DNA from: a bacterium
Lineage (GTDB): Bacteria; Bacteroidota; Bacteroidia; B-17B0; Aurantibacillaceae
NCBI GenBank assembly: GCA_029945625.1
Contig: JAQSCW010000048.1
Coordinates: 1 to 64,000 of the forward strand
Reading direction: 5' to 3'
DNA length: 64,000 nt
The translations under genes and the position numbers were made by a program. Under the pieces are notes generated by a model, which did not search any database, was not told the DNA's origin, and worked only from the letters and a program-made list of their open reading frames with translations. This document shows, one piece after another, positions 44,196-52,793 of this stretch; within the stretch, counting starts at the first letter, position 1, and each line of letters opens with the position of its first letter.

Positions 44196-44250
44196 GGACC
44201 TTTCATTTTTAATTTTTCATTCAAAATTTATCATTCAAAATTTATCATTT
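44196..44250. repeat. A/T-rich heptad repeat, site 1
   Basis: The unit CATTCAAAATTTAT occurs twice in tandem (44218-44231, 44232-44245). On the minus strand the tract reads in 7-base steps: ATAAATT, TTGAATG, ATAAATT, TTGAATG, AAAAATT, AAAAATG. The same units flank the four-helix-bundle gene at 51 kb. The last unit provides the TGA stop of the AlgJ-like gene. Confidence 0.7.
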
Positions 44251-45561
44251 CCCAAATCCCGCCATTCGCATCGCATCCAGCGTGATCGCACTGTCCAGTG
44301 GAATCATAAGATCATTGCTTTTGTGCGTTGACTTTTTAAGCAAGGCCGGAATCTCGCGGATTTGCTTAGCATAGGTTTGAATTTGTTTTTTTCGTTCGCG
44401 TCGTTCGTAAAAGGTTTTTGGGGAAGTGTACAACTCATAAGCATCGTCGATGAATTCATTTCCGTAAGTTGGATAATTCCCATCTGCATACATCAACATG
44501 ATCACCTGGTTTTTTTCAATTTCCTCTTTTAAGTCTAATTCCCATACTTCTATTTTTTGGCCCACCACCCGCGTTGGAACGATTCTGTTATAATAATACC
44601 AGAACTCTCCGAAGCCAAAACATTTTTGCGATACCCCCATATACACGGGTCCGTACCAGTAACTATCGCCAATCACCAACACCCGGTTTCTATTTTTTAA
44701 AGAGTCTATTTCAAACATAATTTTGGGATAAGCCAAGTTCATATTCTGCGCCGGGTTAGAATACAGATTCATGCTCTTTAACACGTCCGCATCGCGACTT
44801 CTAGCGGAATCTATCACCTCTACCTCATCCCATTTTAAATCGGGCAGATCGGTGTTTCGCAGCTTCTCAATATAACGGATCGTCAGTTCCACGGCTAAAC
44901 ATTCTCCATAATAACTCCAGTGATGACCGAATTTGGTAAAGAGTGGGTATTTAGCCTGCGATTTCAATTTTCCGAAATAATCATAAAGATCCAGCAGGTT
45001 GAGTCCGTATTCTTGCGCGAATTTTACAAACAGTTCGTGATTGGTCCCTTTCACAGGATGTTTATATTTATCTTGAATGTACTCCACACAATACTCCCCC
45101 TTACCGGGCGCAAGACCAATAATGAGATCGATCCCCTTCCGTTTTAAGGTATCCTGAACCACTTTTGCTTTCCTGAGTTTTTCAGAGACCTTACTTTCCT
45201 TCAACAAATCATCACCGAAGGCAGAAAAGATGTACCCTTCCGCAAACACATAATTATCTTTTCCACTTACAAAATTATTTACCCGTACATCATTAAAAGC
45301 ATCATAATAAAACTGATTGTTCAAACGTACCATGAGTTCTTTAAAAGCCCAACGGTCGCTTGTATACTCATCCATTTCATCCTGGTACGTGCCATCCAGC
45401 CAATCGGCACGTGAGAATTTTGGTTTTTCATCGCTGATCACTATTCCCACCAAATTAGGTTTGTTATCGCTTTTTATAAACGACATAAGTAGTGGGAATC
45501 CAATAACAAGAAGGGCCACAAGACTATGCACAGAATATGTTTTAATCTTACCTGCCATCAA
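44245..45561 (-). CDS. AlgJ/AlgX-like SGNH O-acetyltransferase component
   Basis: 438 residues. An N-terminal membrane anchor (VALLVIGFPLLMSFI, about 14-28) precedes an extracytoplasmic SGNH-like domain. It has LIIGLAPGKGEYCVEYIQ, TKFGHHWSYYGECLAV (the Asp/His-like motif region of AlgJ) and RVLVIGDSYWYGPV (nucleophile Ser in GDSY). Such proteins take acetyl from an AlgI-type partner and add it to an exopolysaccharide. It overlaps the MBOAT gene by 4 bp (ATGA), so the two form one unit. No polysaccharide synthase is adjacent, so the acceptor glycan is unknown. Confidence 0.85.
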   Translation of the reverse strand: MMAGKIKTYSVHSLVALLVIGFPLLMSFIKSDNKPNLVGIVISDEKPKFSRADWLDGTYQDEMDEYTSDRWAFKELMVRLNNQFYYDAFNDVRVNNFVSGKDNYVFAEGYIFSAFGDDLLKESKVSEKLRKAKVVQDTLKRKGIDLIIGLAPGKGEYCVEYIQDKYKHPVKGTNHELFVKFAQEYGLNLLDLYDYFGKLKSQAKYPLFTKFGHHWSYYGECLAVELTIRYIEKLRNTDLPDLKWDEVEVIDSARSRDADVLKSMNLYSNPAQNMNLAYPKIMFEIDSLKNRNRVLVIGDSYWYGPVYMGVSQKCFGFGEFWYYYNRIVPTRVVGQKIEVWELDLKEEIEKNQVIMLMYADGNYPTYGNEFIDDAYELYTSPKTFYERRERKKQIQTYAKQIREIPALLKKSTHKSNDLMIPLDSAITLDAMRMAGFGK

Positions 45562-49587: not shown

Positions 49588-50601
49588 ATGGGCAAAACAG
49601 CTATTGAAAAGAAATTAAAGTTTACCAAAGAACAATACCTTCATTGGTACGAATCGATGTTGTTAATGCGCCGTTTCGAAGAAAAAACCGGACAGGTATA
49701 TGTTCAACAAAAAATAAAAGGATTTTGCCACCTGTACATTGGTCAGGAAGCCATTGTGGCCGGCACGGTGAGCGCTACTAAAAAAGGAGATAAACACATT
49801 ACTGCTTACCGCTGTCATGCCCACCCTATTGGATTGGGTCTGCATCCAAAATACGTGATGGCCGAAATGTATGCAAAGATCACAGGTTGCAGTAAAGGAA
49901 AAGGTGGAAGTATGCACATTTTCAGCAAAGAGCATGGTTTTGTAGGAGGGCATGGAATCGTGGGTGGTCAGGTGCCTCTGGGGGCGGGGATTGCCTTCGC
50001 TGAAAAATATTTGGGAACCGATCACGTATGTGTATGCTCCATGGGCGATGGCGCAGTTCGTCAGGGCGCCCTTCACGAGGCTTTTAACATGGCCATGACC
50101 TGGAAATTACCTGTAATTTTTATTGTTGAAAATAACATGTACGCGATGGGAACCTCCGTGGAACGCACCAGTAATGTACGCGATTTGTGGAAATTAGGTC
50201 TTGCCTACGATATGCCGAGCAAACCGGTTGACGGTTTAACGGTTGAGGCCGTACACGATGCCATGGAAGAAGCAGTGGCAAGGGCCCGACGCGGCGATGG
50301 TCCTACGTTTTTAGAAATGAAAACCTACCGGTACAAAGGTCATAGTATGAGCGACGCCCAGACTTATAGAACCAAAGACGAAGTAAAAGAATACCAAACT
50401 CAGGATCCGATTCAAAAAGTGCTGGATACCTTGACTAAAAATAATTGGATCACAGAAGCCGACATTGAGGCAATGGAAGAAAAGATCAAGGCAATTGTGA
50501 ATGAATCCGTGCAATTTGCCGAAGAGAGTCCTTACCCCGAGCCGGATGAATTGTACAAGGACGTGTATGCGGATGAGGGGTATCCCTTTATTATTGAATA
50601 A
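49588..50601 (+). CDS. pdhA: Pyruvate dehydrogenase E1 component, alpha subunit
   Basis: 337 residues. Thiamine-diphosphate fold with YRCHAHPIGLGLHP, GGSMHIFSKEHGFVGGHGIVG and the ThDP/Mg motif GDGAVRQGALHEAFNMA ... VENN. The phosphorylatable loop RYKGHSMSDAQTYR is conserved. With E1 beta it decarboxylates pyruvate and acetylates the E2 lipoyl group. E1 beta (pdhB) is not in the window, as is common in Flavobacteriia, where pdhA and pdhC are adjacent and pdhB lies elsewhere. Confidence 0.96.
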   Translation: MGKTAIEKKLKFTKEQYLHWYESMLLMRRFEEKTGQVYVQQKIKGFCHLYIGQEAIVAGTVSATKKGDKHITAYRCHAHPIGLGLHPKYVMAEMYAKITGCSKGKGGSMHIFSKEHGFVGGHGIVGGQVPLGAGIAFAEKYLGTDHVCVCSMGDGAVRQGALHEAFNMAMTWKLPVIFIVENNMYAMGTSVERTSNVRDLWKLGLAYDMPSKPVDGLTVEAVHDAMEEAVARARRGDGPTFLEMKTYRYKGHSMSDAQTYRTKDEVKEYQTQDPIQKVLDTLTKNNWITEADIEAMEEKIKAIVNESVQFAEESPYPEPDELYKDVYADEGYPFIIE

Positions 50602-50604
50602 TTT

Positions 50605-50646
50605 TAAATGTTAAATGCTGAATGTTAAATGCTGAATGTTAAATTG
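50605..50646. repeat. A/T-rich heptad repeat, left flank of the four-helix-bundle gene
   Basis: Tandem 14-base unit AATGTTAAATGCTG (50607-50620, 50621-50634) plus a partial third copy. It is also readable as 7-base steps TTAAATG, CTGAATG, TTAAATG, CTGAATG, TTAAATT. The tract at 51012-51042 is its imperfect inverted counterpart. Confidence 0.8.
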
Positions 50647-50662
50647 TAAAAAGAAATAAATT

Positions 50663-51013
50663 ATGGAACATAAACCCAACGTAATTGTAGACAAGACTTT
50701 TGAGTTCTCTAAGAGAATTATCACATTGTATGTAAATTTGAAAGAAGACAAAATCTTTGAATTGGCAAGTCAACTATTTAGATGTGGGACTAGCATTGGC
50801 GCAAATGTAGAAGAAGCACAAGCAGCCCAATCAAAGAAAGATTTTATTTCCAAAATGAGCATTTCAGCTAAAGAAGCAAGAGAAACCCGATACTGGCTTA
50901 GACTTCTTTCTGAAACTGAAATTACACAATTGGATGTAAAATATGAACTCAAGGAAATCGAAGAAATAATCAATATCCTAACTAAAATTGTAAAGACATC
51001 ATCCGGAAAATAA
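50663..51013 (+). CDS. Four-helix-bundle protein (23S-IVP / Avd-like)
   Basis: 116 residues of the PF05635-type family, with FEFSKRIITLYVNLKED in helix 1, FRCGTSIGANVEEAQAAQSK across the helix 2 turn, KDFISKMSISAKEARETRYW in helix 3 and ELKEIEEIINILTKIVK in helix 4. The family includes proteins encoded in 23S rRNA intervening sequences and the Avd accessory protein of diversity-generating retroelements. No reverse transcriptase or variable repeat is nearby. Its place between pdhA and pdhC and the inverted heptad tracts on both sides suggest insertion. Cellular function unknown. Confidence 0.9.
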   Translation: MEHKPNVIVDKTFEFSKRIITLYVNLKEDKIFELASQLFRCGTSIGANVEEAQAAQSKKDFISKMSISAKEARETRYWLRLLSETEITQLDVKYELKEIEEIINILTKIVKTSSGK

Positions 51014-51042
51014 TTTATCATTTATCATTCAAAATTTAACAT
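51012..51042. repeat. A/T-rich heptad repeat, right flank of the four-helix-bundle gene
   Basis: On the minus strand it reads TTAAATT, TTGAATG, ATAAATG, ATAAATT in 7-base steps. This is an imperfect inverted copy of the left tract (about 22 of 25 positions alike over the best stretch). It begins inside the stop codon of the four-helix-bundle gene. Confidence 0.75.
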
Positions 51043-51050
51043 CTCATAAA

Positions 51051-52664
51051 ATGGCCGAAATAGTAAGAATGCCCAAATTAAGCGATACCATGACCGATGG
51101 TGTGATCGCCAAATGGCATAAAAAAGTGGGGGATAAAGTGAAAAGTGGTGATCTGTTGGCGGATATTGAAACCGACAAGGCCACTATGGAATTTGAGTCC
51201 TTTCAGGATGGCGTTCTGCTTCACATTGGTGTGCAGGAAAAGGGCACAGTGCCTGTAGATTCTGTGATAGCCATACTTGGAAAAGAAGGAGAGGACATCA
51301 GCGCTTTGCTGAATGGTGCTTCAAAGAACGGACAATCTGCAAAAACTCCTACTACAGATGAACCTGCAAAGATGCCCAACACAGCAACACCTGGTTCTCC
51401 TGCTAAATTGCCTGCAGGTGTTGAAGTGGTGCGGATGCCAAAATTGAGTGATACGATGACCGATGGCGTGGTAGCAAAATGGCATAAAAAAGTAGGCGAT
51501 AAAGTAAAGAGCGGCGATTTGTTGGCCGATATTGAAACCGACAAAGCCACCATGGAATTTGAATCTTTTCAGGATGGCATCTTGTTATATCAGGGTATTG
51601 AAGAAGGAAAAAGTGTTGCCGTAAATAGCATCATTGCAATTTTAGGGAAGGGAGGAGAAGATGTAAAAGCGATCCTGGCTTCTATTGTAACAGAGTCGGC
51701 AGGCAGCAGTCAACAGGCGGCAGGCGGCAGTCAGCAGGCAGCAGTTGGCAGCGAGCAGTTGGCAGTAAGCAGTGGGAAAGTTTCAGCTTCTAACGTTTCG
51801 CACAGTGACGCAAGAATAAAAGCCTCACCTTTGGCAAAAGTGCTTGCGAAAGAAAAAGGCATTGATTTGTCGATTGTAAAAGGCAGTGCTGAAAATGGCC
51901 GTATTACCAAATTAGATGTTGAAAATTATGTGCCCGGTAAGTCTTCAAGAAGCAGTGCTCCTTCTTTTGTTGCGTCGGGGACTGAAGGATATAGCGATGA
52001 ACCCATTTCGCAGATGCGTAAAACCATTGCGCGCCGTTTATTGGAAAGTAAAAACGGGGCACCGCATTTCTATTTGAATATTGAAGTGGACATGGACAAT
52101 GCCATTGCCTCCCGAAATGCCATCAATGCTATTCCCGACACAAAAATCTCTTTTAACGACATGGTTATAAAAGCCTGTGCGGCAGCGTTACGTCGACACC
52201 CCAAAGTAAACGTGAGTTGGCTGGGAGATAAGATCCGCTCGTATTCGCACATTCATATTGGTGTGGCGGTTGCCGTTGAAGATGGTCTATTGGTTCCTGT
52301 TATCAGATTCGCTGATCAAAAATCTTTCTCCCAAATTTCTGCTGAAGTAAAAGATCTGAGTAAACGCGCAAAAGATAAAAAATTACAGCCCTCCGACTGG
52401 GAAGGCAATACCTTTACTGTTTCGAATTTAGGAATGTTCGGCATTGAATCTTTTACATCAATCATTAATTCCCCTGAGTCTTGTATACTTTCTGTTGGAG
52501 CGATCCGACAACTACCAGTTGTAAAAAATAATGCTGTTGTTCCCGGAAACGTGATGAAACTCTCGCTGGCATGTGATCACCGCACGGTTGACGGTGCCAC
52601 GGGGGCCGCATTTTTGCAGACCCTCAAAGGTTTTATTGAGAATCCGGTGACGATGCTAGTTTAA
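51051..52664 (+). CDS. pdhC: Pyruvate dehydrogenase E2 (dihydrolipoamide acetyltransferase)
   Basis: 537 residues with two N-terminal lipoyl domains (about 1-80 and 125-205), each with the lipoylated lysine in IETDKATMEFES. A Gln/Ser/Ala-rich linker follows (220-255), then the E1/E3-binding domain (about 262-300, ASPLAKVLAKEKGIDL ... NGRITKLDVENY) and the catalytic domain with DHRTVDGATGA. It transfers acetyl to CoA. The two lipoyl domains are nearly identical in stretches, so recent duplication or conversion is likely. The linker is coded by a GCAGNNN heptad tract (see separate entry). Confidence 0.96.
   Translation: MAEIVRMPKLSDTMTDGVIAKWHKKVGDKVKSGDLLADIETDKATMEFESFQDGVLLHIGVQEKGTVPVDSVIAILGKEGEDISALLNGASKNGQSAKTPTTDEPAKMPNTATPGSPAKLPAGVEVVRMPKLSDTMTDGVVAKWHKKVGDKVKSGDLLADIETDKATMEFESFQDGILLYQGIEEGKSVAVNSIIAILGKGGEDVKAILASIVTESAGSSQQAAGGSQQAAVGSEQLAVSSGKVSASNVSHSDARIKASPLAKVLAKEKGIDLSIVKGSAENGRITKLDVENYVPGKSSRSSAPSFVASGTEGYSDEPISQMRKTIARRLLESKNGAPHFYLNIEVDMDNAIASRNAINAIPDTKISFNDMVIKACAAALRRHPKVNVSWLGDKIRSYSHIHIGVAVAVEDGLLVPVIRFADQKSFSQISAEVKDLSKRAKDKKLQPSDWEGNTFTVSNLGMFGIESFTSIINSPESCILSVGAIRQLPVVKNNAVVPGNVMKLSLACDHRTVDGATGAAFLQTLKGFIENPVTMLV
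51702..51778 (+). repeat. GCAGNNN heptad tract inside the pdhC linker
   Basis: About eleven 7-base units in a row: GCAGGCA, GCAGTCA, ACAGGCG, GCAGGCG, GCAGTCA, GCAGGCA, GCAGTTG, GCAGCGA, GCAGTTG, GCAGTAA and GCAGTGG. Because 7 is not a multiple of 3, the peptide repeats every seven residues (QQAAGGS, QQAAVGS, EQLAVSS). The tract stays in frame and forms a flexible linker between the lipoyl and E3-binding domains. Confidence 0.8.
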
Positions 52665-52670
52665 AAAAAT

Positions 52671-52793
52671 TATGAATTTTAAATGGTAAATTTTAAATCA
52701 ATAAGCTCTAATTTATCTTCAAGCAAAATATAATAAACGTTTCCCCTGAGAGATTTTCATTCATAATTTGTCATTTCACATTTATCATTTCAA
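52671..52793. repeat. Paired heptad repeats without a gene inside
   Basis: The left arm at 52671-52698 is two 14-base units (TATGAATTTTAAAT, GGTAAATTTTAAAT). The right arm at about 52758-52793 is two inverted 14-base units (CATTCATAATTTGT, CATTTCACATTTAT) plus CATTTC. The arms have the same polarity as those around the four-helix-bundle gene, but only about 60 bp of unremarkable sequence lies between them. Confidence 0.65.

Follow-up and report, generated by a model that had tools for sequence, protein, structure and literature searches.

The window analyzed here is a 64,000-nt stretch of contig JAQSCW010000048.1 from an Aurantibacillaceae genome (Bacteroidota; assembly GCA_029945625.1). It contains, as open reading frames on the forward strand, pdhA, encoding pyruvate dehydrogenase E1 alpha (49588-50601; stop codon 50599-50601), and pdhC, encoding the E2 dihydrolipoamide acetyltransferase (51051-52664; ATG at 51051). 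Between them lies a gene for a 116-amino-acid four-helix-bundle (4HB) protein (50663-51013, forward strand), bracketed by two arms with a 7-nt period. The left arm (50602-50651, forward strand) is of the TRAATGY type (TTAAATGCTGAATGTTAAATGCTGAATG); the right arm (51012-51046, reverse strand) is the left arm inverted and overlaps the end of the 4HB gene. Both were recognized by consensus matches and by their pairing, the left one also by its period. Together, gene and arms (hereafter the unit) extend from the pdhA stop codon to the pdhC start codon and fill the spacer completely (50602-51050). The first-pass annotation had located the unit correctly at 50605-51048 but had stopped slightly short of both codons.

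The 7-base inverted flanks described in that annotation were borne out. A 7-nt period runs through the left tract (50598-50651), for which Tandem Repeats Finder reports periods of 7 and 14. The pattern (TRAATKN)3 with at most two mismatches occurred 22 times in the window versus 0.75 expected, and none of 100 shuffles reached this count. In the best ungapped pairing, 24 of 29 positions of the two arms agreed, giving a score of 19; among 376 control genes the mean was 8.3 and the maximum 19. A pair of inverted arms of the same TRAATK type follows pdhC and encloses no gene (left arm 52666-52699, forward; right arm 52758-52791, reverse). Both arms were identified by consensus matches, and the RNA fold of the pair is weak; heptad tracts are therefore not exclusive to the 4HB gene. 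Heptads also occur elsewhere in the window. An array of the GCAGTNG type lies within the pdhC reading frame, in a linker between domains (51694-51773), and is of the type that flanks another 4HB gene of the genome (C32). Direct repeats with CAAGACA heptads, possibly with an inverted partner, are present at 1-75 and 390-470; the stretch between them yielded no 4HB gene, and in relatives heptads of this type flank the 4HB units of the ntrC-like junction. Finally, a TRAATK-type tract lies at 44204-44251, where a partner arm is not obvious.

The first-pass annotation had assigned the gene between pdhA and pdhC to the four-helix-bundle family, and profile searches agreed: the 116-aa frame matched PF05635 (E 1.7e-23; 83.3 bits against a curated cut-off of 33.8) and TIGR02436 (E 1.3e-28; score 99.4 against a curated cut-off of 24). 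An AlphaFold2 model (pLDDT 93.8) matched S23-family structures in Foldseek, 2rld with a TM score of 0.85 and 2gsc with 0.80; judged from this model, the protein is a four-helix bundle of the S23-family fold. A weaker match was to Avd (4dwl; TM 0.57-0.68, 14-18% identity). Among same-site relatives, dN/dS was 0.05-0.12 for pairs with computable dS, which places the protein under purifying selection. Structures of PF05635 proteins have been solved, yet to our knowledge the family has no known function.

A search of the 4.12-Mb genome for heptad-flanked PF05635 genes, as proposed in the first-pass annotation, recovered only three members of the family. All three lie between conserved genes and within matched inverted heptad arms, each with a different heptad: TRAATG at pdh, GGCAGTY in the C32 unit and TTTACGA/TTGACAA in the C10 unit, whose neighbors look like nuoJ and nuoK. 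Across 82 distinct units of the bacterial family, flank identity was 0.40 at lag 7, 0.37-0.39 at lag 14 and 0.35-0.37 at lag 21; other lags, and a set of 257 other intergenic gaps, gave about 0.30. The two arms of a unit matched each other with a mean score of 12.8, whereas arms swapped between units scored 8.4 and the flanks of 376 control genes 8.3 (p~1e-19); about a third of the family units scored <10 in this simple ungapped test. In sequence, an arm matches its partner in the unit but not the arms of other units. The inverted flanks are thus real but do not constitute one terminal repeat, since they differ among units. Within one pdh clade, own arms matched no better than those of a sister, providing no sign of arm coevolution there.

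Heptad tracts were also counted beside and away from the gene. We found 43 tracts in about 15 kb next to 4HB genes versus 44 in 44 kb of other intergenic DNA, a density per base about three times higher beside the gene, and the association between tracts and gene family holds genome-wide. Away from 4HB genes, seven PF05635-bearing genomes had 5-18 tracts per 100 kb and eight genomes lacking the family had 1-6 (p=0.001), in a comparison of small samples that differ in base composition. Background DNA and the genomes lacking PF05635 both spoke against heptads being generally characteristic of these genomes, and this idea was rejected. All 45 units for which both neighbors were called are co-directional with both, compared to 78.5% of adjacent gene pairs in the background of the same DNA. 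Several variants were seen among the family units. The arms of L349 and L350 (G055 and G053), from one 4HB lineage, read as units of about 8 nt (AAGGTTAT). At junctions where relatives hold a heptad unit, L137 (G051) and L033 (G076) have a different, GC-richer hairpin (TTCGAGCG...CGCTCGA and CCCCTCCC...GGGGAGGGG, respectively). In the suf operon, the sufA|B, sufB|C and sufC|D junctions hold 4HB units of related lineages (L103, L097, L062, L063, L075, L076, L056 and L052), as if spreading within the operon.

The first-pass annotation had also called for a comparison of the pdhA|pdhC junction in relatives, in search of empty sites and precise ends. Full-length pdhA copies are 82-93% identical in most genomes of the family, and the 4HB gene is present at the junction in 16 of about 50. 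All 16 spacers, of 418-573 nt, have repeat arms, so the gene was found here in no relative without repeats. In other relatives the spacer is clean and measures 3-54 nt; in yet others it is 60-134 nt long and often holds an inverted heptad hairpin without a gene. The spacer of L005 contains the apparent first and last codons of the 4HB gene, fused, and looks like a remnant of it. Mapped onto the pdhA tree, presence of the unit required 14 changes, compared to a mean of 13.6 for shuffled labels; by this measure its distribution over the tree is random. The two gene trees also conflict. Clade A of the 4HB tree (G000, G040, G034 and G079) has full support there and was rejected for pdhA (AU p 1e-4), and in two pairs of pdhA sisters one member carries clade A and the other clade B (AU p 1e-5 and 6e-7). 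Consistent with exchange of the unit, the pdhC flanks of L106 and L024 are 92% identical and their units 58%, and the heptad type at the junction follows the 4HB clade, not the host.

Turnover was most directly visible between two sister species, G051 and G052, which are 95-97% identical around most unit sites. Of eight G052 units compared, five were absent from G051, one was swapped and two were the same. The swapped unit is roughly 65% identical and has different arms, between flanks of about 97% identity. At filled and empty sites the difference is junction-exact: it spans stop codon to start codon, such that the whole spacer has been exchanged, and the five filled/empty pairs have no target duplication. 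A simple insertion, which would leave the old spacer in place and duplicate the target, was accordingly rejected. Beside some junctions a short divergent tract (<100 nt) extends into coding sequence, a pattern that recombination with a diverged donor would be expected to leave. This direct evidence of turnover comes chiefly from the one sister pair, and most genomes are metagenome assemblies; the swaps, at 95-97% identity, recur in several independent contigs and would be hard to explain by misassembly.

Two observations bear on how units arrive. At serA|DUF1015 and one further junction, G052 is filled and G051 and the outgroups seen are clean, a pattern most simply read as a gain in G052. The serA|DUF1015 unit has its closest relatives at this very junction, one in a different genus (G031, 65% identical) and one in G057 (51%; junction judged by the upstream gene); near relatives are clean there. 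By comparison, another G052 unit has its nearest relatives (72-75%) at two other junctions, glycosyltransferase|ORF (G053 and G055) and sdhA|sdhB (G003), showing from the sequences that one 4HB lineage occupies three junctions. Units therefore mostly return to their own junction and sometimes enter a new one. This fits the 4HB tree of the whole family, which is sorted by junction with hardly an exception, with 15 changes for 15 groups against a minimum of 14 and a shuffled value of 53. The same tree indicates that jumps to new sites are rare and that much of the history could be allelic spacer exchange and loss; recent family-wide hopping as the main mode was rejected on this ground. The suggestion in the first-pass annotation that the unit is mobile or formerly mobile is well supported by the empty sites, the tree conflict, the turnover between sister species and the multi-junction lineage.

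The arrangement extends beyond this family. At 29 loci in other Bacteroidota families, own arms scored 15.1 versus 8.4 for swapped arms. Plasmid-borne 4HB genes with inverted heptads were found in Nostoc, Anabaena and Dolichospermum (Cyanobacteriota), in Treponema (Spirochaetota) and Chlorohelix (Chloroflexota), and in Bernardetia. These plasmid units had a mean own-arm score of 24.7 versus 10.8 swapped and a lag-7 identity of 0.495; two Nostoc units have perfect arms of 36 and 40 nt. The sequences thus show PF05635 genes associated with inverted heptads in four phyla. In two plasmid loci from Cyanobacteriota and Chloroflexota (L265 and L273), the 4HB gene has a helicase-related gene on one side and a DNA methylase on the other, with an additional gene intervening in Dolichospermum; the two phyla may share this junction. 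In Nostoc and Anabaena plasmids (L262 and L263) the 4HB gene is flanked by cas2 and cas1, which are encoded on the opposite strand; unlike in the Bacteroidota family, it is thus not co-directional with its neighbors.

We also looked for signs of an RNA role, a reverse transcriptase and phage carriage. RNA folding of the window unit predicted end-to-end pairing of its arms at a z-score of -1.2, which is not significant, and the gene-less pair after pdhC folded no better than shuffled sequence. Sense-strand G-U wobbles in the arms were not in excess (56 vs 45, p=0.32, from the asymmetry of G-U and A-C). The first-pass annotation had considered a role related to Avd and reverse transcriptase. The fold is indeed Avd-like, yet RVT_1 (PF00078) had no match in 56 of 87 family genomes, including this one and the unit-rich G057, G050, G053, G029 and G058 (6-10 units). 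Dependence on reverse transcriptase was rejected on the basis of these unit-rich genomes: the enzyme is not needed for the units, and the suggested link to Avd and reverse transcriptase found no support. Phages were rejected as main carriers, since only one viral contig and two phage records were recovered, in a strict-pattern scan that is a weak negative.

The closest known parallel is the intervening sequence (IVS) of 23S rRNA. In Coxiella it is 428 nt long, holds an S23p frame inside a 28-bp stem and was acquired horizontally, its mobility mechanism being given as unknown; 25 years on, the function and origin of such elements are still described as unclear (PMC4990558). Like the IVSs of Coxiella and Leptospira, the present units are elements of about 430 nt that enclose a PF05635-family gene in terminal inverted repeats, occur sporadically at the same site in different species and are transferred horizontally. 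Unlike them, they lie between protein genes (pdhA and pdhC in the window) rather than in rRNA helices, have arms that are unit-specific 7-nt tandem arrays, occur at several different junctions per genome and carry a gene under strong purifying selection. The units have the gene family, the size, the inverted ends and the transfer to a fixed site in common with IVSs but not their location in a 23S or 16S rRNA gene, and so are IVS-like but not IVSs as defined.

Heptamer arrays are themselves described, in the passages of two reports that treat them, from Beggiatoaceae (TAACTGA), Cyanobacteria (STRR/LSSR) and Bacteroidota (PMC4679880) and from Xanthomonas (GGGAATC) and Nostoc (GGGGATT), often as convergent pairs, 70 in Xcc and 75 in Xac (PMC4692102). 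As characterized there, these repeats share with the present arms a 7-nt period, an intergenic location, variability between close relatives and frequent convergent pairing; those passages name no associated gene (PMC4679880, PMC4692102), whereas the present pairs bracket a PF05635 gene. The arms are, as in STRR/LSSR, 7-nt tandem units in intergenic DNA, with one lineage at about 8 nt. Avd of diversity-generating retroelements (DGRs) shares the four-helix-bundle fold (4dwl) but differs in its genetic context, at 14-18% identity, and the present genome lacks a reverse transcriptase. REPIN/RAYT elements and MITEs are short, inverted, hairpin-prone intergenic elements, some with a small gene and some without. 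In contrast to these, the present units have no transposase, their ends are not common to copies and the spacer is replaced. They have neither the shared terminal inverted repeats nor the target-site duplication that define classical transposons and MITEs, and no conserved termini were found. In the open-license literature, we found no published link between PF05635 and heptad or inverted repeats.

We favor, with a probability of roughly 0.7, the reading that the gene together with its arms belongs, as a single unit, to a mobile family of IVS-like design that occupies gaps between co-directional operon genes. Each unit consists of a tandem array, mostly of 7-nt period, a PF05635 gene and the inverse array. 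Running from stop codon to start codon, it can be co-transcribed with the operon and leaves it unbroken. Units would reach a junction mainly by recombination with a relative's DNA in the conserved flanking genes, would rarely enter new junctions and would be lost by way of gene-less hairpins. The arms probably act as a DNA hairpin or cruciform, or as an RNA stem as in the 23S rRNA intervening sequences, and the 4HB protein probably binds arm nucleic acid and favors copying of the unit or its tolerance by the host.

Some of the same evidence could point to an intervening sequence of mRNA, in which RNase III or another nuclease trims the arm stem, shielding the operon mRNA from its passenger gene, and mobility is incidental. 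Protein family and layout are those of the Coxiella and Leptospira elements (PMC4990558), all 45 units are co-directional and the arms of the window unit pair end to end in the predicted RNA fold. An RNA stem of this kind is harder to reconcile with fold energies no better than shuffled, in the window unit and the gene-less pair alike, and with the lack of excess G-U wobbles, and we regard this reading as possible but doubtful. Alternatively, an operon gene with a regulatory hairpin could have been inherited vertically and lost many times, with ancient tandem copies lost differentially in a way that mimics exchange. This would account for the junction-sorted tree, the low dN/dS and the apparently fused gene ends of L005. 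It would not readily account for pdhA sisters with different 4HB clades and different arms, for 58% identical units beside 92% identical pdhC in L106 and L024, for G052 units where G051 and outgroups are clean or for one lineage at three junctions, and we consider it improbable.

Less probable still is that the heptads are ordinary products of intergenic slippage, or translation signals, and that the 4HB gene merely sits in long spacers. The 44 other intergenic tracts without a gene fit this idea, as do the heptamer repeats known elsewhere, described without mention of a PF05635 gene in the passages that treat them. However, the per-base density of tracts is roughly threefold higher beside the gene, the two arms of a unit match each other but not those of other units, PF05635-less genomes have few tracts and the association recurs in four phyla. 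We give the least credence to a transposon- or MITE-like element moved in trans by a transposase, or a DGR/Avd-type retroelement moved by reverse transcriptase. Inverted ends around a small gene, the Avd-like fold and gene-less hairpins resembling non-autonomous copies recall such elements; against them stand ends that are not common to copies, the replacement rather than splitting of the spacer with no target duplication, and the lack of reverse transcriptase here and in the majority of genomes that carry units.

Returning to the mobile IVS-like family, a broader and tentative extension, which we think somewhat likelier to fail than to hold, is that PF05635 genes with heptad arms form a class of self-spreading, transposase-free elements that home to operon junctions across phyla. 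The gene-less hairpins and some heptamer repeats of cyanobacteria, xanthomonads and Bacteroidota would then be its products or remnants. Bacterial heptamer repeats are a separate, old puzzle, and the units may explain some of these 7-base repeats. The data tie together PF05635 proteins, rRNA intervening sequences and heptamer repeats. Within the family, core operons (pdh, sdh, suf, his and nuo) have been colonized without breakage by a unit that holds nothing recognizable as a transposase or reverse transcriptase, and the change of six of eight units in one sister pair is frequent enough to allow direct tests of movement.
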